From assembly GCF_000331245.1 (NCBI RefSeq), contig NZ_ANFZ01000011.1, forward strand, positions 1 to 64,000: a stretch of 64,000 nucleotides of DNA, in the 5' to 3' direction. The translations under genes were made by a program, and so were the position numbers. The stretch comes from Blastomonas sp. AAP53. Lineage in GTDB: Bacteria; Pseudomonadota; Alphaproteobacteria; Sphingomonadales; Sphingomonadaceae. Position 1 is the first letter of the stretch, and every line of letters begins with the position of its first letter. This document shows positions 1 through 38,294 of this stretch, in pieces. The notes below the pieces were generated by a model. The model was not told where the DNA came from and made no database searches. It saw only the letters and a program-made list of their open reading frames with translations.

Positions 1-1083
1 ATAACCGGCAGCCATAACCCCGCCAATTACAACGGCTTCAAGATGGTCTTTCAGGGCCGCCCTTTCTTCGGCGCGGATATCCGCAAGCTGGGCGAGATGG
101 CGGCGAGCGGAGACTGGGACAGCGGCACGGGCACGTCGCGCTCGGTCGATATCCTCGACCGGTATATCGACCGACTGGTCGAGGATTTCGGTGGCACGGC
201 CGCCCGTGTCGGCTGGGACTGCGGCAACGGCGCTGCGGGCCCTGCCGTCGAGAAGCTGATCAAGCGCCTTCCGGGCGAACACTTCACCCTGTTCACGGAC
301 GTCGACGGCAATTTTCCCAACCATCATCCTGACCCCACCGAGGAAAAGAATCTCGCGGACCTCAAGGCGCTTGTCGCCGAAAAGAAGCTCGATTTCGGAG
401 TGGCTTTCGATGGCGATGGCGACCGGATCGGCGCGATCGACGGCCAGGGCCGCGTGATCTGGGGCGATCAGCTCTTGAGCATTTACGCCGAAGTGGTTCT
501 GAAAGACCTTCCGGGCGCAACCATCATCGCCGATGTGAAGGCCAGCCAGGCTCTGTTCGATCGGGTCAGCGAACTGGGCGGCGTTCCGCTGATGTGGAAG
601 ACCGGGCACAGCCTGATCAAGTCGAAGATGAAGGAAACCGGCTGTCCGCTTGCAGGCGAGATGAGCGGCCATGTGTTCTTCAAGCACCGCTATTACGGGT
701 TCGACGATGCGCTGTACGCCGCTGTCCGGCTAATCGAGGCGCAGACCGTGCTGGGCAAGTCTGTGACCGACATGCGCGGCGACATGGCCCCGATGATCAA
801 CACTCCCGAAATGCGCTTCCAGGTCGACGAGACGCGCAAGTTCGCGGTGGTGGACGAGATCCTGGCACGGCTGTCGGCGAGCGGCGCGGACGTCAACGCC
901 ACCGATGGCGCGCGGGTCAATACCGCCGACGGCTGGTGGCTGCTGCGCGCCTCCAACACGCAGGACGTTCTGGTCGCCCGCGCTGAAGCGCGTGATGCCG
1001 AGGGTCTGCAACGGTTGATGGAACAGATCGACGCGCAGCTGGCCGCATCGGGCCTGATACGCGGCGAGCAGGCCGGCCACTGA
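1..1083 (+). CDS. manB: Phosphomannomutase/phosphoglucomutase, 5' end outside window
   Basis: Interconverts hexose-6-phosphate and hexose-1-phosphate, giving mannose-1-P for GDP-mannose and probably glucose-1-P as well. The frame is open from the first base, and the second visible residue starts TGSHNP, the phosphoserine active-site loop. Because that loop normally lies about 100 residues in, the N-terminal part is missing from the window. The metal-binding loop DGDGDR is at visible residues 137-142, the sugar-binding GEMSGH near 219-224 and the phosphate-binding RASNT near 316. It is followed after 11 bases by galE and heads a four-gene sugar-nucleotide cluster. Sphingomonad homologues are also called pgmG; substrate preference cannot be read from sequence. 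Confidence 0.93.
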
Positions 1084-1094
1084 GGCACGCGCCC

Positions 1095-2117
1095 ATGTCG
1101 GCCATCGCACAGTTTCGCACAACGCGCGGCATCCTGGTCACCGGGGGCGCTGGCTATATCGGCAGCCATGCCGTGCTGGCGCTCAAGGATGCCGGCTGGA
1201 AAGTCTGCGTGATCGACAATCTGGTCACCGGCTTTGCCTGGGCCGTGCCCGAGGACGTGCCCTTTTATCAGGGTGATATCGCCGATGGCGCGCTGGTCGC
1301 CCGGATCATCGCCGAGCAGGACATCGGCGCCATCCTGCATTTCGCAGGATCGGTGGTGGTGCCCGAATCGGTCAGCGATCCGCTCAAATATTACAGCAAC
1401 AACACCGCCAAGAGCCGCGCGCTGATCGAATCGGCGGTGACGGGCGGGGTGAAGCATTTCATCTTCTCGTCCACCGCAGCGACCTATGGCACGCCCAACG
1501 TGGAAGGTCCGATCCCCGAGACCACGCCGCAGGTGCCGATCAATCCTTATGGCACATCCAAGCTGATGACCGAGTGGATGCTGCGCGATGTCGCCTTTGC
1601 GCATGATTTCAACTATTGCGCGCTGCGCTATTTCAACGTCGCAGGCGCCGATCCGCAGGGGCGCACCGGCCAGTCGACCGCAGGCGCAACGCATCTGATC
1701 AAGGTTGCGGTCGAGGCGGCATTGGGCAAGCGCGAGAGCGTTGCGGTGTTTGGCACCGATTTCGACACGCCCGATGGCACCGGCGTGCGCGATTACATCC
1801 ATGTCAGCGATCTGGCGCACGCCCATGTGCTGGCGCTGGAGGCGCTGATCGACCAGCCCGACCAGTCGCATTTTCTCAACTGCGGCTATGGCCATGGCTA
1901 TTCGGTGATCGAGGTGCTCGATGCGGTCGACCGGGTCACCAACCGGACGATCACACGGGAGTTTTCCGGTCGCCGCGCCGGTGACCCCGCCTCGCTCACC
2001 GCAGATAGCAGGGCGATCCGCAGCCGTTTCGGCTGGACCCCGGCGCATGACGATCTCGACACCATCGTGAGCCATGCGCTGGCATGGGAACGTCATCTGG
2101 GCGAACGATCGGCATGA
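1095..2117 (+). CDS. galE: UDP-glucose 4-epimerase
   Basis: Cytosolic NAD-dependent epimerase of the extended SDR family that interconverts UDP-glucose and UDP-galactose. The N-terminal Rossmann motif GGAGYIGSH spans about residues 17-25. The catalytic set is Ser125/Ser126 in FIFSST and Tyr152/Lys156 in PYGTSK. The 340-residue length is normal for GalE. The next gene starts inside its stop codon (ATGA). With the flanking mannose genes it probably supplies precursors for exopolysaccharide or glycolipid. A UDP-glucuronate or other 4-epimerase specificity is possible, but GalE fits best. Confidence 0.93.
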   Translation: MSAIAQFRTTRGILVTGGAGYIGSHAVLALKDAGWKVCVIDNLVTGFAWAVPEDVPFYQGDIADGALVARIIAEQDIGAILHFAGSVVVPESVSDPLKYYSNNTAKSRALIESAVTGGVKHFIFSSTAATYGTPNVEGPIPETTPQVPINPYGTSKLMTEWMLRDVAFAHDFNYCALRYFNVAGADPQGRTGQSTAGATHLIKVAVEAALGKRESVAVFGTDFDTPDGTGVRDYIHVSDLAHAHVLALEALIDQPDQSHFLNCGYGHGYSVIEVLDAVDRVTNRTITREFSGRRAGDPASLTADSRAIRSRFGWTPAHDDLDTIVSHALAWERHLGERSA

Positions 2118-2953
2118 TTTCGCCCGCCACCGCCATCAAGCTGGCCACGCGGCACGTGGCCAAGCCCTGGGGCCGCACCAGCCTGCCCCAGCCCTTCGAC
2201 AAGCCCGGCAGCGAGCGTATCGGCGAAATTTGGTTCGAGCCGGACGCCGATCTGGTGCTGCCGCTAATGGTGAAATACATTTTCACCAGCGAGAAACTGT
2301 CGATCCAGGTCCATCCCGACGACGGCCAGGCGCGCGAACGCGGCAGCAGCAGCGGTAAGGAAGAATGCTGGCTGGTGCTGGATGCCGAACCCGGCGCGCG
2401 GCTGGGTATCGGCACGCAGCGCGCGCTGAGCGCGCCCGAACTGCGCGAAGCGGCGCTGCACGGCGAGATCGAGGCGCTGATGGACTGGAAGCCGGTCGCT
2501 CGCGGCGATTTCTATTACATCCCCGCAGGCACCGTCCACGCGATCGGTGCAGGAATCAGCCTGATCGAGGTCCAGCAGAACGCCGACATTACCTATCGTC
2601 TGTACGATTACGGCCGCCCGCGCGAGCTGCATCTCGACGATGGCGTCGCCGTTTCGAACGCTGTGCCTTATGCCGACGCGCTGCATCGCACGGTGGATTT
2701 TGCTGCCGACCAGATGCTGGTCGACGGGCCGCATTTTCGCCTGATGCTGACCGGGAACGCGACGGCCGATCTCGAGGGTTACGGCCCGGTGATGGTCGTG
2801 CCGGTCGAAGGCAGCGTGGAAGTGGCCGAGGCCGATGGCATGATCCGTGCCGAAGCCGGAGAGTGTCTCGCGGTGGCCCCCGGCGCGCAGCTCCACGCCA
2901 GCGCCGACGCCCGGCTGCTGCTGGCACGGGCGTGCAAGGGAGCAGACGCATGA
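2114..2953 (+). CDS. manA: Mannose-6-phosphate isomerase, class I
   Basis: Zinc enzyme converting fructose-6-P to mannose-6-P, feeding the mutase and guanylyltransferase beside it. Type I cupin metal ligands are visible: Gln65 and His67 in IQVHPDD, a Glu in GKEECW (about 83-84) and His142 in AGTVHAIG. The 279-residue protein is the short bacterial form. An in-frame start 30 bases upstream exists. The chosen ATG overlaps the galE stop by four bases, the same arrangement used by the next gene, which supports it. The protein ends at an ATGA overlap with manC. Confidence 0.92.
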   Translation: MISPATAIKLATRHVAKPWGRTSLPQPFDKPGSERIGEIWFEPDADLVLPLMVKYIFTSEKLSIQVHPDDGQARERGSSSGKEECWLVLDAEPGARLGIGTQRALSAPELREAALHGEIEALMDWKPVARGDFYYIPAGTVHAIGAGISLIEVQQNADITYRLYDYGRPRELHLDDGVAVSNAVPYADALHRTVDFAADQMLVDGPHFRLMLTGNATADLEGYGPVMVVPVEGSVEVAEADGMIRAEAGECLAVAPGAQLHASADARLLLARACKGADA

Positions 2954-4008
2954 GCAAGATCACGCCCGTCATCCTGTCCGGCGGATCGGGCACGCGGCTT
3001 TGGCCGCTGTCGACCGATGCCAGCCCCAAGCAGTTCCTGGCGCTCGCGTCCTGCGCCACCATGTTCGCCGATACGCTGGCACGAACCGCGGATGCCGACC
3101 GGTTCGGTCCGGCGCTGATCATCGGGGCTGAGCGGCACAGCGCGCTGATGGAGACCGAGCTGTCGCAGCCCGGCTTTGCCGATGCACGGATCATTCTGGA
3201 GCCCAGCGCGCGCAACACCGCGCCTGCCATCGCGCTCGCCGCACTGGCCGCAGGCAGCGGCGATGCGGTGATGCTGGTGATGCCCAGCGACCATGTGATC
3301 CTCGATCTGCCCGCCTTTCTCGCTGCGGTCGATACGGCGCTGCCGGCCGCGCTCGCGGGATGGCTGGTTACCTTCGGCATCGAGCCGACGGGGCCGGAAA
3401 CCGGCTTTGGCTATATCCGCATGGGCGATGTCCTTGGTGACGCGCCCGGCGTGCGGCAGGTGGAACGCTTCATCGAAAAGCCCCCCCGCGACAAGGCAGA
3501 GGCGATGCTCGCCGAGGGCAGCCATGCGTGGAACGCGGGCATCTTCCTGATGCGCGCCGACCGCTATCTGGCCGAGCTGGCGGAACACGCGCCCGAAATG
3601 GACCGCACCGCACGCGCCGCGCTCGACGGCGTGGACCTGTCCGACCGGTACATCCGCCCGCATGCCGATCGGTTTGCCGCCTGCCCTTCGGATTCGATCG
3701 ACTATGCCGTGATGGAGCGCGCAACGCAGGTTGCCATCGTGCCCGTCGCCTGTGGCTGGTCCGACGTCGGCAGCTGGGATGCGCTGGCCGAGATCGGCAC
3801 GCCCGATGACGCGGGCAACACGCTGTCGGGCGATGTCGTGGTGCTGGACACGCGCAACAGCCATATCCATGCCGATGGCATCACGGTGACCGCATCGGGC
3901 ATCGACGACCTGATCATCATCGCCAATGGCCGCCATGTGATGATCGTCCCCAAGGGCCGCTCGCAGGATGTGAAGGCGCTGGTCGCGGAGCTGAAGGCGC
4001 GCGACTAA
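2950..4008 (+). CDS. manC: Mannose-1-phosphate guanylyltransferase
   Basis: Makes GDP-mannose from mannose-1-P and GTP, the last step of this cluster. The nucleotidyltransferase signature SGGSGTRLWPLS is at about residues 8-19, followed by PKQFL. Further family motifs are FIEKPP, WNAGIFLM, SIDYAVMER and GWSDVGSWDAL. The 352 residues match the single-domain form, without the C-terminal isomerase domain of bifunctional ManC/AlgA, consistent with a separate manA upstream. The ATG overlaps the manA stop (ATGA). An open frame of the same phase runs upstream through manA but is only a shadow. Confidence 0.94.
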   Translation: MSKITPVILSGGSGTRLWPLSTDASPKQFLALASCATMFADTLARTADADRFGPALIIGAERHSALMETELSQPGFADARIILEPSARNTAPAIALAALAAGSGDAVMLVMPSDHVILDLPAFLAAVDTALPAALAGWLVTFGIEPTGPETGFGYIRMGDVLGDAPGVRQVERFIEKPPRDKAEAMLAEGSHAWNAGIFLMRADRYLAELAEHAPEMDRTARAALDGVDLSDRYIRPHADRFAACPSDSIDYAVMERATQVAIVPVACGWSDVGSWDALAEIGTPDDAGNTLSGDVVVLDTRNSHIHADGITVTASGIDDLIIIANGRHVMIVPKGRSQDVKALVAELKARD

Positions 4009-6452: not shown

Positions 6453-8939
6453 TCAGAAGAAGAACCGTGCGGAAGCAGAGACCGTGCGACCGTACATCGT
6501 CCGGCCCATGACCACGCCAGAGGCAGGGATCGCGCCTTCCGAAATGCTGGTGATGGCGCGTTCGTTCAGCAGGTTGCTGGCATTCACGCTCAGTTCGACC
6601 CGTTCCATCGGACGAAACTGGGCAAATGCCCCGACCGTCGTGAAGGCCGGCAGCCGCAGGACATTGACGTCCTGAGCAAAGCTGCCGGTGGTGCCGATGA
6701 TATTCGCCCCGATCGAGAACTGATCGCTGTCGAATTGCGGACGCAGACCCCAGAGCAGCTTGGGCTGCTGACGGGGAATGTTGCCGACCAATGCGGGGTT
6801 TTCAGCCGCATCGATCTCCGCTTCGGTATAGGTGGCATGCGCGGTCAGACTGAACGGACCGCGACGGATGCCGCCCTCGAACTCAAGGCCATAGGCCTTG
6901 TACGAGCGCGCCACGGTGGCCAGCTGGGTGAGCCCGGTCACGGGGTTTGTCGTGATCTGCGAGTTGGTCTCGTCGGTCAGCGCATAGAAGCCCGTGAGGT
7001 TCAGCACGATGCCGTCCTGACGGAACTTCAGACCCAGTTCCGCCTGACGCAGCGTGTCGTTGCCCGCCACGCTGTTGACCAGCGCGCCGGTGACGGTGCT
7101 GACCGCGGGCGTGAACAGGATCTTGTCCGCCCCGGCGCGTCCGCCCCGGCTGTACCGGGCAAAGACCGCGAACGGTTCCGACATGCGATAGTTCATGCTC
7201 AACGAGTACGACAGATAGTCGTGGTTGTAGTTGACCGGGAAGGACACGCCAACCGGGATGAAGGTGACGCGGCTCTCGGGCACCGAGAGCGCACCGTTGC
7301 CATTGATGTCAAACGGCTTGCTGCCTGAATCGTTGATGATGTTGCCGCGCACGCGCAGTTTGTCCCAGCGCATTGATCCGCCGATGGCGAACTTGCCCTT
7401 GGCGAAGTTGAACGAACCAAAAGGTGCGGTGACCTGATAGTTCAGATCGGTGTTCTTGGAGTTTCCAAAGCCCCCGGCGCTGCCATAGACCAGAACACCG
7501 CCCTGGGTGACGGGAATGCCCGTTGCCGTGGTCAGGTTGACCGGAACCGACTGGCCGCCGCCGATCGTATCCTGGAAAAAGGTCGTGAAGCCGATTTCCG
7601 ACACATATTCCTGGCTCGACCGGTACAGACCGGCCGTCGTGGTGAGATCACCGCCACCAACATTCCACACCCGGCTGAGGCGCAGGTCGTTGGTCATGTT
7701 GCTGACATCCGACGCATCGGAGTCCGCGATGAACGACAAGGTCAGCAGACCATTGCCGCTGGCATCGAACGGCTGGCCAGCGCGCGCGCCGGCCGCATAG
7801 GTGAGCCGCGCGCCGGGGCCGCCGAAGCGGGTCGCAAACGCTGCTGCGGGAGCTGCTGCCGAGGGGAACAGGATGACGTTGCGCATCGACTGGTCGGCGT
7901 AGCGGAAGCGGTTGGTGACCGACCATTCGCCCAAGCTGAACTGCGCATCGAAGCCCAGCGACTTGGCCTTGGCCCGCGTCCCTTCGCTCAGGTCGATTTC
8001 CGTGGGCGTACCCGACGCTCCCAGACGCAGCGATGCCGGCAGATTGGGCGACAGCGGCGACGAGGTACGGCTGTCGAGGCCGATGGGATCGGCAAAGGAC
8101 GGATCGCCGTTCGTGCCGGTCACCAGCAGCGGCGTGTTGATGAAGCCGGGCACCTTGTCATCGAGCAGCTTGCCGTAAACGCGGATGTAACCGCCATCGA
8201 ACTGCTTGGTGACGTTGAACTTCACCTGGCCGCCGCGCATCGAGTTCATGCCGGTTTCGCGCGGACCTTCGCCTTCGCGATAGAAACCGCCGACATGGAA
8301 GCGCCAGCCGTTGCCAAGCTTTGCACCATAGTCGAAATCGGTGCGGTAGCTTTCAAAGTCGACGCCGATGGTAGCCATCACCGATCCACCCTCGACCTCG
8401 CCGGTCTTGGAGATCAGGTTGATCACGCCGCCAGGCGCATTCGATGCAAAGGTCGACGCCGAGCCGCCGCGAATCGATTCGACCTGCGCGACGTTGAGGT
8501 CGGCGCGCACGAACGTGTCCGGGGTCAGCGTCAACAGATCGCCGAACTCCAGAACCGGCAGGCCGTCTTCCTGGATCTGGATGTACTTGCTGCCATCATT
8601 GACCAGAGGCAGGCCGCGAACCGTGTAGCTGTTGCCGACTTCACCGGTGCTGGCGTTGACGCGGATGCCCGGAATGTTGCGGAACAGCTCGGCCAGCGAA
8701 CGCGGCGCGATGCTGATGATGTCGTTTTCCTTGATCGCGCTGGTCGATGTCGCGCTGTTCAGGCGATCGCGGCCACGCGCCACGCCGGTGGTGACCATGT
8801 CGCCCTCGTCAACCGTGCGGCTGGCCTCCCATGCGGTCATCGGCTTGGCGTCCTGTGCCGCCACCGGCACCGCAAAGGTGCACACCGCAATTGCGGCAAC
8901 GGATACGCAAGTAGATACTCGACTCTTGAAGAAATTCAT
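6453..8939 (-). CDS. TonB-dependent outer-membrane receptor (copy 1)
   Basis: Outer-membrane gated transporter powered by TonB-ExbBD. A signal peptide (about residues 1-29, ending PVAAQ) is followed by a possible TonB-box region (DEGDMVTTGVARGRDRL) and a plug domain with ELFRNIPGIRV, YTVRGLPLV and FASNAPGGVINLISKTG. A 22-strand-type barrel ends ARFFF with the typical terminal Phe. The 828-residue length is standard. AGGGG lies seven bases before the ATG. There is no secretin/STN domain, so no FecA-type sigma signalling is expected. It is a close paralogue of the receptor upstream. The substrate (siderophore, oligosaccharide or other) is not predictable. Confidence 0.93.
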   Translation of the reverse strand: MNFFKSRVSTCVSVAAIAVCTFAVPVAAQDAKPMTAWEASRTVDEGDMVTTGVARGRDRLNSATSTSAIKENDIISIAPRSLAELFRNIPGIRVNASTGEVGNSYTVRGLPLVNDGSKYIQIQEDGLPVLEFGDLLTLTPDTFVRADLNVAQVESIRGGSASTFASNAPGGVINLISKTGEVEGGSVMATIGVDFESYRTDFDYGAKLGNGWRFHVGGFYREGEGPRETGMNSMRGGQVKFNVTKQFDGGYIRVYGKLLDDKVPGFINTPLLVTGTNGDPSFADPIGLDSRTSSPLSPNLPASLRLGASGTPTEIDLSEGTRAKAKSLGFDAQFSLGEWSVTNRFRYADQSMRNVILFPSAAAPAAAFATRFGGPGARLTYAAGARAGQPFDASGNGLLTLSFIADSDASDVSNMTNDLRLSRVWNVGGGDLTTTAGLYRSSQEYVSEIGFTTFFQDTIGGGQSVPVNLTTATGIPVTQGGVLVYGSAGGFGNSKNTDLNYQVTAPFGSFNFAKGKFAIGGSMRWDKLRVRGNIINDSGSKPFDINGNGALSVPESRVTFIPVGVSFPVNYNHDYLSYSLSMNYRMSEPFAVFARYSRGGRAGADKILFTPAVSTVTGALVNSVAGNDTLRQAELGLKFRQDGIVLNLTGFYALTDETNSQITTNPVTGLTQLATVARSYKAYGLEFEGGIRRGPFSLTAHATYTEAEIDAAENPALVGNIPRQQPKLLWGLRPQFDSDQFSIGANIIGTTGSFAQDVNVLRLPAFTTVGAFAQFRPMERVELSVNASNLLNERAITSISEGAIPASGVVMGRTMYGRTVSASARFFF

Positions 8940-9207: not shown

Positions 9208-11697
9208 TCAGAAGAAGAAGCGCGCCGATGCCGAGATGTTGCGGCCAAACAGCGGCCGCGCCATGACAACACCCGATGCCGGCAAGGCGCCTTCGGAGAT
9301 ACCGGTGATGGCACGCTCGTTGAGCACGTTGTTGGCATTGATGCTCAACTCGACCCGCTCCATCGGACGGACCTGCGCAAACAGACCGACGGTGGTGTAG
9401 CCCGGCATCCGCAGCTGGTTCACATCCTGGCTGAAGCTTTCGGTGACGCCGATGATGTTGGCACCCACGGTGAACGTGTCGGTGTCGAACTGCGGTGTCA
9501 GGCCGAACAGCAGCTTGGGCTGGTTGCGCGGAATGTTGCCTTCCAGCGCCGGGTTTTCCGCGCTGCGGATCTCGGCCTCGGTATAGGTGGCATGCGCCGT
9601 GACGCTGAACGGACCACGGCGGAAGCCGCCTTCGAACTCGAGCCCGTACGCTTCGTAAGCGCGAGTCACCGAGTTCAGCTCGAGCTGACCGGTCACCGGG
9701 TTGGTCAGGATCTGCGAGTTGGTGTCATCGGTCTTCGCGTGGAAACCGGTGAGGTTCAGCACCAGCCCATCCTTGCGATACTTCAGGCCGATCTCCGCCT
9801 GCCGCACGCTGTCATCGCCGGCACCGCTGTCGAGCAGCGCGCCGGTCGACCGGCTGAGTGCAGCAGTGAACAGGATCTTGTCCGCCGCGGCCCGGCCACC
9901 CAGGCTGTACCGCGCAAACGCCGCAAACGGCTCTGACACGCGGTAGTTCACGCTCACCGAGTAAGACAGATAGTCGTGGCTGTAGTTGACCGGCTGGGTC
10001 ACGCCGACCGGAACGAACGAAACGAGCGTTTCGGGTGCCGAGATCACGCCATCGCCATTCATGTCGAACCGCCGGACGGCGCCGTCGTTCATGATGTTGC
10101 CCTGCGCCCGGCTGTTGTCCCAGCGCACCGACCCGCCCAGTGCAATCTTGCCCTTGGCAAAGTTGACCGAGGCAAAAGGTGCGGTGGTGGTGTAGGTGAC
10201 ATCATTGTCCCTGATGTTGCCTGCAGCACCGGGGCCGCCAAAGTTGCGGTAGCCGCCTTCGGTCAACGGCACGCCAGCCAGGGTCGTCAGGTTGAGCGGC
10301 ACGGCCTGTCCACCGCCCACGACATCCTGGAAGAAGGTCGCAAAGCCGATTTCAGAAACGAAATTCTGGCTCGACCGGTACAGACCGGCGGTCGTCGTCA
10401 GGTTACCGCCGCCCACTTCCCAAACGCGGCTGACACGAAAATCATTGGTCATGTTGCTGACGTCCGGGGCGTCGTTGTCCGAATAGAAGGACAAGGCGAC
10501 CAGTCCGTTGCCACCGGCGGCATCGAATGCCTGGCCTGCGCGCGGCCCTGCCGCGTAACGGAAGGTCGCACCTGCACCGCCGAAGCGAGTCGCAAACTGA
10601 CCTGCTGGCGCAGCAGACGAAACCACCAGAGTGGTGTTGCGCGTCGACTGGTCCGCATAGCGGAAGCGGTTGGTGACCGACCATTCGCCGAGGCTGAACT
10701 GGGCGTCAAAGCCCAGCGACTTGGCCTGGACCTCTACACCGTCGTTGAAGTTGCGGCGACGCACCTGCCCGGATGAACCGAGGGTCAGAACGACAGGAAG
10801 ATTGGGCGAGAGCAACGAATCGGTCCGGCTGCTGACGCCGCGCGGATCGGCAAACGAGGGGTCATCATTGGTGCCGGTGATGAGCAGCGGCGTGCCGGTG
10901 AACGTCGGGACGCGGTCATCGAGCACCTTGGCGTAGACGCGGATATAGCCGCCATCGAACTGCTTGGTGACGTTCATCTTCACCTGGCCACCGCGCGATG
11001 CGTTGAAGCCGGTTTCCCGCACGCCTTCGCCTTCGCGATAGAAACCGCCGACGTGGAAGCGCCAGCCATCACCCAGACGGCCACCATAATCGAAATCGGT
11101 GCGATAGCTCTCGAAGTCGACACCGACGGTGGCCATGATCGACCCGCCTTCGACTTCACCGGTCTTGGAGATCAGGTTGATGACGCCGCCGGGCGCGTTC
11201 GAGGCAAAGGTCGACGCCGAGCCGCCACGAATGGATTCGACCTGACCGACGTTGAAGTCCGGGCGGACGAACAGATCGGGGGTCAGGCGCATCAGGTCCC
11301 CGAATTCCATGACGGGCAGACCGTCTTCCTGGATCTGGATGTACTTGCTGGCGCCGTTGACCATGGGCAAGCCGCGCACCGTGTAGTTGTTCTGCGCCTC
11401 ACCGGCACCTGCTTCGATACGGATGCCCGGAATGTTGCGGAACAGCTCGGCCACCGAACGCGGCGCAAGACGGATGATCTCGTTTTCCTTGATCGCGCTG
11501 GTCGAAGTTGCGCTGTTTAGCCGATCGCGGCCCCGCGCCACACCGGTGGTGACCATATCGCCTTCATCGACGGTCCGGCTCGCTTCCCATGCGGTCAGCG
11601 GCTCGGCCTCCTGCGCTGCGGCGGGTGCCGACAGCGCGCACACAGCAAGAACGACAACCGATGCACAGGTAAATTTCGTGGAATTCAAAGTAATCAT
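9208..11697 (-). CDS. TonB-dependent outer-membrane receptor (copy 2)
   Basis: Second outer-membrane receptor, 829 residues, in the same orientation as copy 1. Long stretches are identical or nearly so, including AWEASRTVDEGDMVTTGVAR, AELFRNIPGIR, the plug and much of the barrel. The loops around LGSSGQVRRRNFNDG and GRVERVELS-adjacent segments diverge. A signal peptide ends APAAAQ, and the last residues are ARFFF. The ATG chosen is preceded by GGGGGCGC; an in-frame TTG four codons upstream also exists. A terminator follows, so each copy may be a separate transcript. The pair probably arose by tandem duplication followed by loop divergence. Confidence 0.93.
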   Translation of the reverse strand: MITLNSTKFTCASVVVLAVCALSAPAAAQEAEPLTAWEASRTVDEGDMVTTGVARGRDRLNSATSTSAIKENEIIRLAPRSVAELFRNIPGIRIEAGAGEAQNNYTVRGLPMVNGASKYIQIQEDGLPVMEFGDLMRLTPDLFVRPDFNVGQVESIRGGSASTFASNAPGGVINLISKTGEVEGGSIMATVGVDFESYRTDFDYGGRLGDGWRFHVGGFYREGEGVRETGFNASRGGQVKMNVTKQFDGGYIRVYAKVLDDRVPTFTGTPLLITGTNDDPSFADPRGVSSRTDSLLSPNLPVVLTLGSSGQVRRRNFNDGVEVQAKSLGFDAQFSLGEWSVTNRFRYADQSTRNTTLVVSSAAPAGQFATRFGGAGATFRYAAGPRAGQAFDAAGGNGLVALSFYSDNDAPDVSNMTNDFRVSRVWEVGGGNLTTTAGLYRSSQNFVSEIGFATFFQDVVGGGQAVPLNLTTLAGVPLTEGGYRNFGGPGAAGNIRDNDVTYTTTAPFASVNFAKGKIALGGSVRWDNSRAQGNIMNDGAVRRFDMNGDGVISAPETLVSFVPVGVTQPVNYSHDYLSYSVSVNYRVSEPFAAFARYSLGGRAAADKILFTAALSRSTGALLDSGAGDDSVRQAEIGLKYRKDGLVLNLTGFHAKTDDTNSQILTNPVTGQLELNSVTRAYEAYGLEFEGGFRRGPFSVTAHATYTEAEIRSAENPALEGNIPRNQPKLLFGLTPQFDTDTFTVGANIIGVTESFSQDVNQLRMPGYTTVGLFAQVRPMERVELSINANNVLNERAITGISEGALPASGVVMARPLFGRNISASARFFF

Positions 11698-12284
11698 TTG
11701 CGCCCCCAATAAGCACTGCTTGGATGAGGAGGCGAACTAGGGTTCGTAAATTAACGCGAAGTTAAACACGAACAAGATGTCTGTAACTGTGACAAAACCT
11801 TTTGCCGATTGAGTCATCACGCCCAATAGATCAAGAAATAAAGCAGGTTTCTCAATGATCTGCAGGCCAGCTGCCGTTGCTTGCGACAATGGAACCCCGC
11901 CAAGCCGGATTTTGGCAAACGGTTGCATCTTGTTGAAAAACAATCGTTATACCGCGCTCTGCCGAAACAGCGATGCTTGACGCTTTTTTCGCCGCTGCCA
12001 TGTGAAAAATCACGAATCTGATCGCAGATCTACCCCTGAGGCTTGCCAGGACACCTGGGAGAATCGCCTTTGGAGTTGGTGGGCGGCAGGCGATTCGCCG
12101 CAATTGTCAGGAACGGCCGAAACAGGGCCCATCGCTCGGTCGCGATGCCGCCGGGATGCCTGCCGGTCAAAACCCTCAGATTTCGGGGGTCCTGGCGGTC
12201 GATGTTAACTTCTTGTTTACGCTGACTGCCTAATTTTTGGCCAAAGGTCGGGTGTCCTTGCCGACTTGTCCATTGGCGAGAACC
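11698..12284. other. Long intergenic region between divergent genes
   Basis: Relatively AT-rich DNA between the receptor (leftward) and the DUF2332 gene (rightward). It contains the TTAA-N7-TTAA site near the receptor and T-rich stretches near 11985 and 12232. The small open frames here look like chance: no ribosome-binding site and no recognisable protein motif. No RNA gene was recognised. Promoters for both flanking genes should lie here. Confidence 0.5.
11751..11765. promoter_or_regulatory. TTAA-N7-TTAA site (CtrA-type) upstream of receptor copy 2
   Basis: TTAA-CGCGAAG-TTAA sits 54-68 bases before the receptor ATG. Flanking GTTCGT and ACGAAC extend an imperfect dyad over about 31 bases. 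The spacer shares GCG and a final G with the site of copy 1. Confidence 0.5.
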
Positions 12285-17651: not shown

Positions 17652-18626
17652 TTATATAGATTCGCCCGAAAGGCGTTGGCAGATCAGGTCAAGCTGATCG
17701 AGATTCCCGTACCGCACCGTGACGCTGCCGCTGCGCTGGTTGGCGTCCGAGGATATCTTGACCTTGAGACCCAACAGGTCCTCCAGATGCCGCTCGACCG
17801 CTGCGATATCAGCGTTGCTGTTCGCATCACCACCGGTCTTGACGCGCGGCGGGCCATCCGACTTGCCCGTCGCCTCGCTGCGCGCGCGGCGGACCAGCTT
17901 TTCGACATCGCGTACCGAAAGCCCCCGATCGACCACCTCGGCCGCGATGCTCTCACAATCGGCGACGTTGATCAGCGCGCGGGCGTGCCCCATGCTGAGG
18001 CTGCGATCGGCGACCATCTTGAGGACCGTCTGCGGGAGCGCGAGCAACCGCATGAGATTGGCGATATGGCTGCGCGACTTGTCGACCATCCGTGCGACCT
18101 CGACCGGCGAATAGCCCTGGTCCCCCACCAGCCGCTGATAGGCTTCGGCCTCTTCCACCGGGTTGAGGTCTTCGCGCTGGATATTCTCGATCAGTGCGAG
18201 CGCAAAGGTGTCGGGATCGCTGAGTTCGCGGACGATGGCGGGAATTTCGTGCAGCCGGGCGCGCTGCGCCGCACGCCAGCGGCGTTCACCCGCCACCAGT
18301 TCATAGCCGCCGCCCTTGCGCGGGCGCACGATGACCGGCTGGATGACTCCACGCTGCGAGATCGACCGCGCCAGATCGTCGAGCGCTTCTTCATCGAAAT
18401 AGCGGCGCGGCTGACCGGGGTGCGGACGAATGTCGGCGAGCGGCAGCGATCGCAGACCTGTCGTCACCGGGCTGTCCTGCCCGTCGCTTCCGCCGTCGCG
18501 GCGGACGAGCGGCTCCTCGCGGCCCGCTTCGCCCAGCAGCGCGTTGAGCCCGCGGCCAAGCCCCGTCGGGCGCTTGCGGCCAATGGCCTTGGCCATGTCG
18601 GTCAGATCGCTCGGGTCCTGGGCCAT
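17652..18626 (-). CDS. parB: Chromosome-partitioning protein ParB
   Basis: CTP-dependent DNA clamp that loads at parS and guides origin segregation. The N-terminal KRPTGLGRGLNALLG is the ParA-interacting region. Next come the CTP-binding box GERRWRAAQ, ENIQREDLNPVEEA and a helix-turn-helix with VARMVDKSRSHIANLMRL that reads parS. The 324 residues end in a dimerisation domain (LEDLLGLKVKI…GSVTVRYGNLDQLD). The ATG shares a base with the parA stop. The three parS sites lie 0.9-3.7 kb upstream in the same gene cluster. Confidence 0.97.
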   Translation of the reverse strand: MAQDPSDLTDMAKAIGRKRPTGLGRGLNALLGEAGREEPLVRRDGGSDGQDSPVTTGLRSLPLADIRPHPGQPRRYFDEEALDDLARSISQRGVIQPVIVRPRKGGGYELVAGERRWRAAQRARLHEIPAIVRELSDPDTFALALIENIQREDLNPVEEAEAYQRLVGDQGYSPVEVARMVDKSRSHIANLMRLLALPQTVLKMVADRSLSMGHARALINVADCESIAAEVVDRGLSVRDVEKLVRRARSEATGKSDGPPRVKTGGDANSNADIAAVERHLEDLLGLKVKISSDANQRSGSVTVRYGNLDQLDLICQRLSGESI

Positions 18627-19411
18627 CAGGCGGCTTCCTCTTCCATACGGGGCATGCGGGAAATGAACTCGCGGGCCAGCGCGATATACGCTTCGGACCC
18701 GACGCAGCGATGATCGTAGATCAGCGCGGGCATGCCATGGCTGGGTGCTTCCGACAGCCGGACATTGCGCGGGATGACCGTATCAAACACCAGCTTGCCC
18801 AGCACCGCGCGAACATCGTCCGATACCTGATCGGTCAGCCGGTTACGCCGGTCGTACATGGTGAGCACCACACCGATGATCGACAGATCGGGATTGAAGC
18901 GTTGCTGCACGCGCTCGACCGTCTGCAGCAGCTGGCTCAGGCCTTCGAGCGCGAAGAACTCGCACTGCAGCGGCACCAGCACCTGATCGGTCGCGACCAA
19001 TGCGTTCAGCGTCAGCAACCCCAGCGACGGCGGGCAATCGATCAGGCACACCTGCCAGCGCCCCGGAGGTGCGCCATCCATCGGCGTCTTCAGCCGGTGG
19101 GTGCGGTGTTCCAGATCGACCATCTCGATCTCCGCGCCCGAGAGATCGACCGTCGCCGGGACGATATCGAGCCCCGGAATCTGCGTCGGCACGCAGCATT
19201 GCGCGAGCGAGCAATTGTCGGTGAGCAGATCGTAGCTCGAATATTCGCGGTCGTTGCGCGCAATCCCCAGCCCGGTCGAGGCGTTGCCTTGCGGATCGAG
19301 ATCGATAAGCAGCACCGACAGCCCCGTCGCCGCGAGCGCCGTTGCCAGGTTGATCGCGGTGGTGGTCTTGCCCACCCCACCCTTCTGATTCGCAATCGCG
19401 ATGCGGATCAT
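18626..19411 (-). CDS. parA: Chromosome-partitioning ATPase ParA
   Basis: Deviant Walker-type ATPase that forms a nucleoid gradient to pull ParB-parS complexes. The P-loop KGGVGKTT lies at residues 10-17 with the signature Lys. It also shows LIDLDPQGN, LIDCPPSLG and VPLQCEFFALEGLSQL. The 261 residues match the chromosomal ParA/Soj family. AGGAG lies seven bases before the ATG. The gene start overlaps the rsmG stop (ATGA) and its end overlaps parB, so rsmG-parA-parB form one transcript. Confidence 0.97.
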   Translation of the reverse strand: MIRIAIANQKGGVGKTTTAINLATALAATGLSVLLIDLDPQGNASTGLGIARNDREYSSYDLLTDNCSLAQCCVPTQIPGLDIVPATVDLSGAEIEMVDLEHRTHRLKTPMDGAPPGRWQVCLIDCPPSLGLLTLNALVATDQVLVPLQCEFFALEGLSQLLQTVERVQQRFNPDLSIIGVVLTMYDRRNRLTDQVSDDVRAVLGKLVFDTVIPRNVRLSEAPSHGMPALIYDHRCVGSEAYIALAREFISRMPRMEEEAA

Positions 19412-20106
19412 GATCTGCTCCTGTTCCGGCGCACTCGCCGATCACGTGCTGGTTGCGGAAGGATAGCGGGAGAGGCCCGCCCGGTGCCGACGAGGATGGC
19501 CGCGTCGGGATCGGTCAGGCTCTGTTCCACGTGAAACACATGCTGCCACGCGGACGACACGCTTTCCAGTTCCATCGCCGCATTTCGTCCCTTTGGCAGC
19601 AGCCAGCGCGTCTTTTCTGTGGAAAAGCGGGCAGCGCCCTCCAGCAATCGCGGCAAAGGCGCAAACGCGCGCGCAGAGATATAATCCGCAGGCTCAGCCT
19701 CCATCCGATCGAGTGCCATGCCCGCAACCATCACCCGGTCCGCCAGTCCCAGATGCTCGATCGCCCGTTCCAGATAATCGATTCGCAAGGCTCGCGATTC
19801 GACCAGCAACACCTTGCAGGGGGCCAGCAGCCCGATCACCAGCCCTGGAAAGCCTGCCCCGCTGCCCAGGTCGATCCAGAGCTCTTGCGGTTGCGGGTCG
19901 GCGAAGCGCAGCAACTGCGCGCTGTCGACGATATGCCGTTGCCACATCTGTGCCAGCGTCGCTGCCGAAACGAGATTCTGATGGCGCGCCTCGTCCGCGA
20001 CGAATGCCGCGAGCCGGTCGAGCGCCTCCATTGTTTCACGTGAAACACCGGGCTGTGCGGCCATCCAGTCGCGGGCGCTCACTTCGCTATCGATGATGTC
20101 CGGCAT
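19408..20106 (-). CDS. rsmG: 16S rRNA (guanine-N7) methyltransferase RsmG
   Basis: Methylates G527 of 16S rRNA. The SAM-binding loop is LGSGAGFPGLVI (about residues 78-89), followed by LLVESRALRIDYLERA. The 232-residue length is normal plus a basic tail. Two parS sites lie inside the coding sequence. The one at 20032-20047 is read as VSRET near the N-terminus, and the one at 19523-19538 as VFHVEQ near the C-terminus. The gene overlaps mnmG by one base and parA by four. Confidence 0.95.
   Translation of the reverse strand: MPDIIDSEVSARDWMAAQPGVSRETMEALDRLAAFVADEARHQNLVSAATLAQMWQRHIVDSAQLLRFADPQPQELWIDLGSGAGFPGLVIGLLAPCKVLLVESRALRIDYLERAIEHLGLADRVMVAGMALDRMEAEPADYISARAFAPLPRLLEGAARFSTEKTRWLLPKGRNAAMELESVSSAWQHVFHVEQSLTDPDAAILVGTGRASPAILPQPARDRRVRRNRSRS
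19523..19538. promoter_or_regulatory. parS: parS centromere site 1
   Basis: TGTTCCACGTGAAACA differs from the perfect palindrome TGTTTCACGTGAAACA at one base and equals the canonical Bacillus parS. It lies inside the 3' part of rsmG, 0.9 kb from parB. Confidence 0.9.
20032..20047. promoter_or_regulatory. parS: parS centromere site 2
   Basis: TGTTTCACGTGAAACA is a perfect 16-base palindrome matching the parS consensus exactly. It lies inside the 5' part of rsmG, where it encodes VSRET. Confidence 0.95.
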
Positions 20107-22045: not shown

Positions 22046-23347
22046 CTATTTGCCGATGCAGAATGCACCGAAGAGGGAATCGAGCATGTCCTCGACATGC
22101 GTCCGGCCCAGAAGCCGATCCAGCGCTAGCCGAGCGAGCCGCAACGTTTCCGCGCGCAACAGCAGATCGTCAAGGGCGATGGCGGACTCCAGCGCAGCCG
22201 CACATTCCTCCAGCAGGCGATGCTGCCGCGCGTTCAGCGCGACCTCACCTGCCCCCGGCAGCAAGGTCTGTGCCGTCGCGACAAGATCACCGATCAGCGC
22301 TTCAAGCCCCTCGCCGGTATGGGCGGAGATCCGGTGCCGCGCCGACGTTTTTGTTTCACGTGAAACACCCGCCCGATCGATCTGCGGTTCGAGCTCCCAG
22401 ACCTGCGCATGCGCTGGCCCCTCGCCCTCTGCGCCAAGCCACAGAATGATGTCCGCCGCCGCCATAGCATCGCGCGCGCGACCGATCCCGATCGCCTCAA
22501 TGGCTTCGGCGCCCTCGTCGCGCAAACCGGCGGTGTCGGTCAGCACGAACGGAACCCCGCCCAGCGCCACCGGTGCCTCGATCACGTCGCGCGTTGTGCC
22601 GGCGATATCCGACACGATCGCCGCGTCGCGTTGCAGCAGCGCGTTGAGCAGCGTGGACTTGCCGCTATTGGGAGCTCCTGCCAGAACGACCCGAATGCCA
22701 TCGCGCAGCCGCTCGGCGCGAGGTCGTGAAAGCGCGGCGCGCAGATCGGCGACGAGCGCCACCAGCGCCTCACCCACCGGATCGGCTGCCCCTGCCCCGA
22801 CATCGTCCTCGTCCGAAAAATCGAGCTCGGCCTCGATCAGCGCCGACAGCCGCAGAACATCGTGCCGCCACCCCTCGACCTGGCGCGACAGATGGCCGCT
22901 CGCCATGCGGATCGCCGCAATGCGCTGCGCCTCGGTTTCGGCGAACAGCAGATCGGAAAGCCCTTCGGCTTCGGCGAGATCTATCCGTCCGTTCAGGAAT
23001 GCGCGGCGGGTGAATTCGCCAGGCTCGGCCAGTCGCAGACCGGGCAGCCCTGCCAGCGCCATCTCGACCGCACGAACCACGGCGCGGCCGCCATGCAGAT
23101 GCAGCTCGCCCAAGTCTTCGCCGGTGGCTGTGTTGGGACCTGGGAACCAGAGAACGACACCGCGGTCGAGCACATCGCCAGTTTCAGGGTGACGCAGGCT
23201 GCGCAAGGAGGCGCGGCGTGGCGCAGGCAAGGCGCCGCACAACGCTTGCAGCGCAGGGCCTGCCTGCCCTCCGCTGATCCGGATGATGGCCAAAGCGGCG
23301 GGCGGCGCGCCGCTCGACAGCGCGTAGATCGTTTCGCCCGCCTGCAT
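22046..23347 (-). CDS. mnmE: tRNA modification GTPase MnmE
   Basis: Partner of MnmG in U34 modification. Residues 1-120 form the folate-binding domain. The inserted G domain shows the P-loop GAPNSGKST, the switch region IAGTTRD and DTAGLRDE. The C-terminal FCIGK is the catalytic Cys motif. The length is 433. The G4 base-recognition motif is degenerate: where NKxD is expected the protein reads [11 protein letters not shown] parS site starts immediately after and is read as VSRET. Some alphaproteobacterial MnmE proteins also deviate here, so activity is likely retained. Confidence 0.95.
22352..22367. promoter_or_regulatory. parS: parS centromere site 3
   Basis: A second perfect copy of TGTTTCACGTGAAACA, inside mnmE next to the G4 loop and about 2.3 kb from site 2. 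Confidence 0.95.
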
Positions 23348-29080: not shown

Positions 29081-30112
29081 TTATGCGCCCTGCTTCACCA
29101 GTGTAAGCAGTGCGTGAACATGTTCAATGGGCGTCTGCTGCAATATGCCATGGCCCAGGTTGAAAATGTGCGGCCGCCCCTCGAAGGTGCGGATGATGTG
29201 CCGGACCGCGCTTTCCATCTGCTCGCCGCCGGCCAGCAGCGCAAGCGGATCGAGATTGCCCTGCACCGGCAGATGCGCGGGGATGTTGGCCGCAGCCCAG
29301 ACCGGGTCGATCGTCTCGTCGAGCCCCAGCGCATCGACACCGGTCTCGCGCGCATAGGCGGCCAGCTTTTCGCCTGCGCCCTTGGGGAAACCGATGACCG
29401 GAATGCCGGGCCGTGCTTCATGGATGGCAGCGGCGATCCGCGCGTTGGGCGCGATGACCCAGCGTTCGAACTGTGCCGGCGACAGTGATCCGGCCCAGCT
29501 GTCGAAGATCTGTACCGCATCGACCCCGGCATCGATCTGACCGATGAGATAGGTGATGGTCAGATCGACGATGGCGTCGATCAACACCTGGAAAGCCTGC
29601 GGATCTCTATAGGCATAGGCACGGGTGGCGTGCTGGTCCTTGCTGCCCTCGCCGTTGACCATATAGGTCGCCACCGTCCAGGCAGACCCTGCAAAGCCCA
29701 AAAACGCCTTCTCAGGCGCAAGCTCGGCTTTGACCAGACGTACGGTCTCGTAGATCGCATCGAGGCGCTCATAGGCCGGGACAAGGCTCTCCAGCGCATG
29801 ATCGACCAGAGTGGGAGACAAATGCGGACCTTCGCCCACCAGAAACTGAAGGTTCTGCCCCATCGCATAAGGCACGATCAGAATGTCGGAAAACAGGATC
29901 GCGGCATCGAGATCGAACCGGCGCAGCGGCTGCAGCGTGATCTCGGCAGCCGAGGGACTGTCATACACCAGTTCCAGAAAGCCGCCCTTGTCTGCCCTGA
30001 GCGCGCGATACTCGGGCAGGTAGCGCCCGGCCTGTCGCATCATCCACATCGGTGGAACATCGTGCACCTTGCCTGCCAGGCAATCGAGCAATGGTGCGTT
30101 TCGCGTCGTCAT
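29081..30112 (-). CDS. hemE: Uroporphyrinogen decarboxylase
   Basis: Decarboxylates uroporphyrinogen III to coproporphyrinogen III in haem synthesis. The substrate-binding signature PPMWMMRQAGRYLPEYR is near residues 18-34, and the central GFAGSAWTVATYMVNG is the second signature. The 343 residues are normal. The ATG of MTTRNAPLLDCL fits family starts; an in-frame ATG seven codons upstream falls at the edge of the AT-rich origin tract. Together with the gene on its other side it brackets the replication origin, as in Caulobacter. Confidence 0.96.
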   Translation of the reverse strand: MTTRNAPLLDCLAGKVHDVPPMWMMRQAGRYLPEYRALRADKGGFLELVYDSPSAAEITLQPLRRFDLDAAILFSDILIVPYAMGQNLQFLVGEGPHLSPTLVDHALESLVPAYERLDAIYETVRLVKAELAPEKAFLGFAGSAWTVATYMVNGEGSKDQHATRAYAYRDPQAFQVLIDAIVDLTITYLIGQIDAGVDAVQIFDSWAGSLSPAQFERWVIAPNARIAAAIHEARPGIPVIGFPKGAGEKLAAYARETGVDALGLDETIDPVWAAANIPAHLPVQGNLDPLALLAGGEQMESAVRHIIRTFEGRPHIFNLGHGILQQTPIEHVHALLTLVKQGA

Positions 30113-30416
30113 CTCGGCTGTGTCCCCACCCATCTTTATTCTTTTAACCTTTATATAAGGAATCTGTTGAAGAAGGCCGCTGGATAACCGGCACGACCAT
30201 CTCTTGCCTTATGTATCGACAGATTGACAGTCGGCAAGTGACCTCACAGCCGCGAGTCGGCAAAATTATCCCGCCTTTCAACAGCCTGTGGGTAACCTTG
30301 TCCCGTGTGGATAAAGCCTGTGATGACTCTTCGGTCAGGGGGCATCGAATCCATCCCCGCTTTTGCCCACAACATCATGCCTTGATTTATCCCCGCTCTG
30401 CCCACAGACCAGAGCC
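30113..30416. other. oriC: Predicted chromosomal replication origin (oriC)
   Basis: A non-coding region between divergent hemE and the DUF299 regulator gene, the arrangement of Caulobacter crescentus oriC. It holds one exact DnaA box TGTGGATAA (30306-30314), a one-mismatch box TGTGGGTAA (30287-30295) and weaker ones. The weaker ones are TTATCCCGC at 30266, TTGCCCACA at 30363, TTATCCCCG at 30387 and CTGCCCACA at 30398. An AT-rich tract at about 30132-30166 could be the unwinding element. Gene direction reverses here, and parS sites lie 8-11 kb away. The dnaA gene itself is not in the window. Confidence 0.8.
30306..30314 (+). promoter_or_regulatory. Exact DnaA box
   Basis: TGTGGATAA is the complement of the consensus TTATCCACA. 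A one-mismatch box in the same orientation starts 19 bases upstream, at 30287. Confidence 0.8.
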
Positions 30417-31271
30417 ATGAGCCGCTTTCACCTCCATCTGCTGTCGGATTCCACCGGGGAGACGCTGGAAAACATCGCCAAGGCGGCACTGGCGCAGTTC
30501 GATGCGATCGAGATCATCAAGCATTTCTGGCCGATGGTCCGGTCCGAAACGCATCTCGACCGGATTCTGGACGAGGTCGCGGCCAATCCGGGGCTGGTGC
30601 TGTTCACTCTGGTCAATCCCGACATCCGCGCCAAGTTGGAACGGCGCTGCCGGGTGCTGGGCCTGCCGATGGTGCCCGCGCTCGATGCCGTCACCGATGC
30701 TTTGTCCAACTTGCTGGGCCAGGCAGCCAAGGCGCGCCCAGGTCGTCAGCATGTGCTCGATGCCGCCTATTTCGCGCGCGTCGAGGCGATCCAGTTCACG
30801 ATCGCGCATGATGACGGCCAGAACTGGGAAAACTGGGAGACGGCAGACATCGTGCTGGCGGGGGTCTCGCGATCGTCCAAGACCCCGACCTCGATCTATC
30901 TCGCCAACCGGGGCTATCGCACCGCGAACATCCCGATCGTCGTCGAATCTCCGCCGCCGCCGTGCCTGTTCACGCTGAAACATCCTCTGGTGGTCGGGCT
31001 GACGACCAATCCCGAACGGTTGATCGCGGTACGCCGCAACCGCCTGTTGTCCTTGAACCAGGCCCCCGAAACCGACTATGTCAATGACGAGAAGGTGAAG
31101 GCCGAGCTGGCTTTTGCGCGACGGATGTTTGCGGATAATGGTTGGCCGGTCATCGATGTGACCCGCAGGTCGATCGAGGAATCGGCGGCAGCGATCATCA
31201 ATCTGTTCAACGAGCGCGAAGCTGCACGCGAGAGCGGAAGACAGGCAGGGCTCTCGGCCGATGAAGTGTAA
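30417..31271 (+). CDS. Pyruvate dikinase / PEP synthase regulatory protein (DUF299)
   Basis: Bifunctional ADP-dependent kinase and phosphate-dependent phosphorylase that switches PEP synthase or pyruvate phosphate dikinase off and on. The 284 residues start MSRFHLHLLSDSTGETLE. The P-loop-like GVSRSSKTPTSIYLANRG lies near residue 155, followed by NIPIV. Neither target dikinase is in the window, so PEP synthase versus PPDK cannot be decided. The ATG follows the DnaA-box region directly, and the promoter must lie within the origin. Homologues occupy this origin-flanking place in Caulobacter. Confidence 0.93.
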   Translation: MSRFHLHLLSDSTGETLENIAKAALAQFDAIEIIKHFWPMVRSETHLDRILDEVAANPGLVLFTLVNPDIRAKLERRCRVLGLPMVPALDAVTDALSNLLGQAAKARPGRQHVLDAAYFARVEAIQFTIAHDDGQNWENWETADIVLAGVSRSSKTPTSIYLANRGYRTANIPIVVESPPPPCLFTLKHPLVVGLTTNPERLIAVRRNRLLSLNQAPETDYVNDEKVKAELAFARRMFADNGWPVIDVTRRSIEESAAAIINLFNEREAARESGRQAGLSADEV

Positions 31272-37873: not shown

Positions 37874-38294
37874 GGGGGGGGGTCCTTTCGATGGGTTGCG
37901 AACTGAACGATCGACCGGCCCTGGCGGGTAAGGGCCCTTCAGGACCGGTCTTTCTGGTTCGCCGCCGATGTCCGGCCTGGGGAGCTAAGGAGCATCGGCG
38001 ACATCATCTGGATAGGACGCCACACCGCGCTGGTCGCGCCATGCTCGACCAGCCTCCGCAATGTGTCGGTCAACGACTACGCCTGTCGACGAACGACAGA
38101 GGCGCATCGACGAGTGCAACATGTGTAAAGTTTCTGTCACCGAATCGGCAACTTCCTGTCATGCTTTCCGTTACGGAACACGGCCACTGGCGAGATCCGG
38201 GCTACCCTTCGACCTGCGGCACCGCACCGGGTGCAGCCGTGTCCGGAGAGCCGCACCAGGCTTTGGCGCGGACGCCGGTTTCACGTGGAACCGG
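37874..38294. other. Intergenic region with a parS-like palindrome at its end
   Basis: No gene is supported in this 421-base stretch; it must carry the urcA promoter and the thiS-thiG 3' flank. It ends in the near-palindrome described separately, which abuts the thiS-thiG stop codon. Confidence 0.5.
38275..38294. repeat. Near-palindrome with a degenerate parS core
   Basis: A 20-base sequence, CCGGTT-TCACGTGG-AACCGG, symmetrical except for one base pair. Its core differs from the parS consensus at three of 16 positions. It directly follows the thiS-thiG stop and could be a transcript-end hairpin, but no T-run follows. Confidence 0.4.

Follow-up and report, generated by a model that had tools for sequence, protein, structure and literature searches.

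Where does the chromosome of Blastomonas sp. AAP53 begin to replicate? A first-pass annotation placed the origin in a short region next to hemE and called it an origin of the Caulobacter type. The window, that is, the whole stretch of 64,000 nucleotides analysed here, stands at the beginning of contig C11 (181,983 bases) in an assembly of 3.6 Mb and 28 contigs. The question is whether the region at 30113-30416 is really the place of initiation, and in what sense it resembles the origins already described.

The locus and its neighbourhood

The gap is 304 bp long and separates two divergent genes. On its left is hemE, for uroporphyrinogen decarboxylase (29081-30112, minus strand, starting at 30112; Pfam PF01208, URO-D), and on its right the gene of a pyruvate, water dikinase (PEP synthase) regulatory protein of the DUF299/COG1806 type (30417-31271, plus strand, starting at 30417; PF03618, Kinase-PPPase). 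The first-pass annotation had the coordinates of this non-coding gap right, and both proteins match the expected Pfam families. Among the matches listed, the nearest named relatives of the regulator protein are those of Blastomonas natatoria (96% identity), Sphingomonas ursincola (94%) and Blastomonas aquatica (93%). Gene order, box counts and an alignment within the genus were used to mark the intergenic region as a putative oriC. A known RNA gene in the gap was also considered and rejected; the single Rfam match, to a human lncRNA family, reached 22 of 55 bits, far under the gathering score.

The dnaA gene is located on a separate contig, C18, and not on C11; PMC8116508 reports that Sphingomonadales have not retained dnaA close to the origin. 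Two other features of the window are worth recording in their own right. Neighbouring and similar genes for TonB-dependent receptors of 828 and 833 aa lie at 6453-8939 and 9208-11709, both on the minus strand. Positions 1-4002 align in G101, a genome of the same genus in a single contig of 3.86 Mb, about 110 kb from the alignment of the remaining contig, which amounts to a rearrangement near the putative origin.

DnaA boxes and their conservation

The gap has one exact DnaA box, TTATCCACA, at 30306-30314 on the minus strand, and a box with one mismatch, TTACCCACA, at 30287-30295 on the same strand, the two starts being 19 bases apart, as had been claimed. The "several degenerate boxes" of the first-pass annotation can be recovered as four with two mismatches each: TTATCCAGC (30179-30187, minus strand), GTATCGACA (30213-30221, plus strand), TTGCCCACA (30363-30371, plus strand) and TTATCCCCG (30387-30395, plus strand). 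A cluster of this kind is seldom produced by dinucleotide shuffling of the gap: at least two boxes at no more than one mismatch were found in 0.3% of 2000 shuffles, and at least six boxes at no more than two mismatches in 0.1% of 1000. The exact box taken singly is weak evidence, since the organism's own 3.6-Mb genome has six exact copies of TTATCCACA against ten of a reversed control pattern. Nor is it a conserved hallmark of the gap; it is exact in only two of the nine genus genomes, the other seven having TTGTCCACA. The evidential weight is carried by the box cluster and its conservation, not by the exact box alone.

The conservation can be seen directly within the genus, where the gap region is present in all nine genomes examined. 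Invariant columns make up 65% of the gap, compared with 69% of the hemE part and 74% of the regulator part of the alignment; the gap is kept nearly as strongly as coding DNA. The TTACCCACA box has no more than two mismatches in any of the nine genomes, GTATCGACA and TTGCCCACA are identical in all nine, and TTATCCCCG is identical in its first eight bases, while TTATCCAGC has three mismatches in the other eight genomes. The longest invariant block, of 23 bp, is at 30211-30233, and another, of 21 bp, at 30374-30394; together with the further blocks at 30165-30181 and 30361-30372, they contain weak DnaA boxes at best.

A wider scan of GTDB relatives points in the same direction. The best 80 of 534 relatives were kept, and box and motif counts were made over 80 gaps; one locus with a 967-bp gap (L011) was left out before the gene-order, box and motif counts. 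These 80 best-scoring relatives partly overlap the genus genomes (G001 and G007 are the same place, as are G002 and G163). The divergent hemE-regulator pair was found in 81 of 81 loci, namely the window and the best 80 of the 534 relatives. At no more than one mismatch, the 80 gaps hold 207 boxes compared with 5.4 in dinucleotide shuffles, and the box density is 7.8 per kb compared with 0.24 per kb in the flanks. At least one such box is present in 79 of the 80 gaps and at least two in 67; the gap of L041 has none at this threshold. In the majority sequence of the 80 gaps, two boxes face each other, CTTATCCACAG and CTGTGGATAA, and TGTGGACAA and TTTATCC.CA come after them. The window's counterpart of the first facing box is degenerate: CTTTCAACA, with three mismatches, at 30275-30283 on the plus strand, lies roughly where the majority sequence has TTATCCACA.

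Two loci seen in the course of this work form a side observation. They are "plasmids" of 425 kb (L252, NZ_CP155751.1, deposited under Sphingomonas parapaucimobilis) and 404 kb (L253, NZ_CP076395.1, deposited under Sphingopyxis indica) containing the origin region between hemE and the regulator gene, along with rho, aroE, coaE and dnaQ, and are either mis-filed pieces of a chromosome or parts of a split one.

The AT-rich tract and other motifs

The AT-rich tract that had been reported in the gap is real. This candidate DNA-unwinding element lies at 30132-30174, and no 40-mers in the window are richer in A and T than the two that begin there, at 30132 and 30135 (31 of 40 bases). The gap as a whole has an AT content of 48%, matched by 0.6% of the 304-mers in the window.

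Four GANTC sites, the type recognized by CcrM, start at 30160, 30254, 30325 and 30347 (30160-30351 overall). Over the 80 gaps there are 308 GANTC sites compared with 96.7 expected from shuffles that keep base composition only, an excess that would fit CcrM-type methylation. A search of the gap for the CtrA site TTAA-N7-TTAA gave no exact match and one with a single mismatch, at 30144, the left TTAA half of which is present in two of the nine genus genomes; at strict consensus, the IHF site WATCAN5WTR was not found in the gap. In the 80 gaps, CtrA sites number 29 compared with 12.1 in base shuffles, and IHF sites 18 compared with 6.9. The base shuffles used for CtrA, IHF and GANTC preserve composition only and ignore the AT-rich patch, and the CtrA and IHF excess is therefore not relied on.

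The partition locus and the possibility of an origin nearby

Profile matches identify a parB gene for the chromosome partition protein at 17652-18626 and a parA gene for the partition ATPase at 18626-19411, both on the minus strand. Three parS sites stand next to them: TGTTCCACGTGAAACA at 19523-19538, and TGTTTCACGTGAAACA at both 20032-20047 and 22352-22367. They are the only ones in the organism's own genome at no more than one mismatch to TGTTYCACGTGRAACA, adjoin parAB, and are 7.7-10.6 kb from the gap. PMC4468827 reports a parS within 8 kb of the Caulobacter origin, Cori, and parAB is near the origin in almost all the genomes analysed in PMC8116508. A fourth, weaker parS candidate at 38277 has three mismatches to the plain consensus. 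The genome has one strong ParB, beside the gap, and a second, weak ParB_N match at C8:97668.

In some bacteria the origin is sited by the parAB/rsmG/mnmG/mnmE genes. It could be argued, then, that the hemE gap is merely a DnaA-regulated double promoter, and that the true origin is kilobases away, for example near these genes at 17-24 kb. The position of parABS (17.6-22.4 kb) would suit such an arrangement, and so would the skew minima of the organism's own contig C11, which fall at 23.8 kb for cumulative GC and 27.2 kb for keto skew rather than at 30 kb, on a contig with only 30 kb to the left of the gap. On the other hand, the stretch from 17 to 24 kb has just one box at no more than one mismatch, at 19618, and the AT-rich tract, the box cluster and the cross-genus conservation are all in the hemE gap; a resolution of a few kilobases is beyond skew, in either direction. 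We consider this reading of the gap very unlikely.

GC skew in relatives

The first-pass annotation had named GC skew over the whole chromosome as one check of its proposal. Skew was sampled in stretches of the chromosomes of relatives and, for the organism's own genome of 28 contigs, on C11 and C8 only. The outcome is divided: the skew reverses around hemE in G101 and in G003, a more distant sphingomonad, and the best position is about 0.2 Mb away in G205, of the same genus, and in G004, a Sphingobium.

The most informative chromosome is that of G101, with hemE at 2.992 Mb. In 20 spread stretches of 20 kb, one of them with 2,500 masked bases, the skew is positive in 9 of 10 to the right of hemE, and in the left half all 10 are negative. 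An origin score calculated from 24 stretches is 0.3151 at hemE compared with a maximum of 0.3154, and positions within 5% of the maximum cover 2.92-3.11 Mb; none of 5000 permutations gave a score as high as that at hemE, adjacent stretches not being independent. With 40 stretches hemE scores 0.390, and the highest value, 0.423, falls at 2.95 Mb. At finer scale the cumulative GC curve has its minimum at 2.915 Mb, which is 77 kb away from hemE, and the keto curve at 3.013 Mb, which is 21 kb away; two stretches immediately to the left of hemE, at 2.94-2.98 Mb, have positive skew. A reversal is likewise observed in G003, with hemE at 413 kb: to the left of 405 kb, four of five stretches are negative and one is zero; of the 12 between 405 and 2120 kb, 11 are positive, and past 2300 kb all three are negative.

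The picture is less sharp in the other two. On contig C1 of G205 the best skew position is at 1.52 Mb and hemE at 1.323 Mb, about 0.2 Mb apart; the score at hemE is about half of the maximum (0.083 of 0.154), and the skew is negative in the stretches at 1.35 and 1.45 Mb. This offset reflects either a local inversion or noise. In G004, where the skew proved too noisy to be of use, the best position is at 2.71 Mb and hemE at 2.527 Mb, 0.18 Mb off, with scores of 0.142 of 0.164. In the organism's own genome, contig C8, which is left of the gap in the order of G101, has a skew of -0.018 in the G101 orientation; C8 need not adjoin C11 here, since C11 matches a different part of G101 over its first 4 kb.

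That break in synteny with G101 at the left end of the contig, like the 0.2-Mb offset in G205, would be in line with a recent move of the origin in this species, with the hemE gap left behind as a relict. Such a move is highly improbable in our estimate: the weak boxes and invariant blocks of the gap are the same in the other eight genus genomes, and every parS found adjoins the gap, together with one strong ParB.

An inverted pair of exact boxes elsewhere in the genome

Two of the six exact boxes in the genome form a facing pair, with 16 bp between them, at 155362-155395 of contig C4 (G000:C4:155362-155395); nowhere else in the genome are two exact boxes found close to each other. With a third box, TTATGCACA, at 155585, 198 bp on, they form an element at C4:155362-155593 (L086:5362-5593). 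It lies within the 1.1 kb that separate a DUF3429 gene, itself preceded by an argininosuccinate synthase gene, from a gene for a dicarboxylate symporter. Both exact boxes are found at the same spacing in all nine genus genomes and the third box in eight of the nine, while the flanking bases vary. In a sample of 199 family genomes, eight match the element: four of the genus, the organism itself included, and four others over 28 to 65 bases only. An Rfam search of the element gave no match. The pair gives a folding z of -3.1, which is expected because the pair is an inverted repeat; the sequence downstream gives -0.9 and the reverse strand of both 0.0.

With two exact boxes and TTATGCACA in a 1.1-kb intergenic stretch, and the pair kept in nine of nine genus genomes, this site might itself be taken for the origin. 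The skew in relatives (G001 and G101) led us to reject it. The 1.3-Mb contig C1 of G001 carries the pair at 784 kb and is negative in 16 of 18 stretches along its length; near-zero positives at 740 and 900 kb flank the pair, with no lasting reversal. In G101 the pair is about half-way along a replichore and scores 0.048 compared with 0.315 at hemE (24 stretches), or 0.099 compared with 0.390 (40 stretches). The search of the organism's own genome for parS at no more than one mismatch found none near the pair. An origin at this site is hardly credible.

There are elements in E. coli, datA and DARS, with which the pair might be compared. The origin of the genus would use mostly weak boxes, and the distant exact pair on C4 might act in a datA/DARS-like manner, controlling when initiation occurs by titrating DnaA or by recharging it; we offer this as a tentative and rather doubtful suggestion. 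Alternatively, the element could be a DnaA-controlled promoter.

The hemE gap as the probable replication origin

The oriC assignment made in the first-pass annotation is supported by the gene order, the DnaA-box cluster, the AT-rich tract, the nearby parABS and the skew of G101, and it is these five together that indicate the gap as oriC. Judged from the sequence, the probability that 30113-30416 is the chromosomal replication origin can be put at roughly 0.93.

DnaA binding, unwinding and initiation at the gap are what we infer from its anatomy. DnaA would bind a cluster of one strong and several weak boxes, with its core at about 30266-30314 and outer boxes at 30179-30221 and 30363-30395. 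The bound protein may then separate the strands of the AT-rich tract, which lies towards hemE, and this would permit helicase loading and the departure of two forks in a bidirectional manner; ParB at the parS sites 8-11 kb away would presumably separate the new origins.

With this assignment, chromosome maps in the genus gain a zero point, and a small fragment becomes available that can be tested. It is also worth pointing out that exact boxes of the E. coli type are a poor guide in this genus, in which the gap conserves mostly weak boxes and invariant blocks and an exact pair is found elsewhere.

Comparison with known origins

The Caulobacter origin has been located experimentally between the same two genes, and the same place is given for Rickettsia (PMC1914354). 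As Cori is described in PMC1914354 and PMC4468827, the gap shares with the Caulobacter crescentus origin the site between hemE and the COG1806/DUF299 gene, an AT-rich tract and several, mostly weak DnaA boxes; a parS nearby, within about 8 kb in Caulobacter, is a further likeness (PMC4468827). The two differ in their boxes and regulatory sites. The Cori boxes are described as moderate G-boxes and weak W-boxes, whereas the window's gap has one box that is exact as a sequence match. In Cori there are five sites for CtrA and one for IHF; the gap has no strict match to either and one CtrA-like site with one mismatch. The label "Caulobacter-type" thus holds for location and gene neighbourhood but not for regulation, strict CtrA and IHF sites not having been found in the gap. 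The literature is divided on CtrA: according to PMC4468827, CtrA sites are not seen in other alphaproteobacterial origins, possibly except Rickettsia, whereas some are noted in the Wolbachia, Ehrlichia and Anaplasma origins in PMC1914354.

A second close comparison is with the family. Among the literature matches listed, the genus name Blastomonas appears only in PMC4741004. The origin of Sphingopyxis granuli is located close to hemE in that report, which describes its boxes as conserved and notes a putative unwinding element, and DoriC predicts an origin close to hemE for most Sphingomonadaceae. The hemE-side location is already published there for the family, so the assignment made here is sound but expected. 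The gap differs from the Sphingomonadaceae origins in its central box, which is TTATCCACA in the majority sequence of the 80 gaps and degenerate in the window. What it shares with the oriC predicted by DoriC/Ori-Finder for Sphingopyxis and most Sphingomonadaceae (PMC4741004) is the site close to hemE and the conservation of gene order, as well as the presence of several DnaA boxes and of a putative unwinding element.
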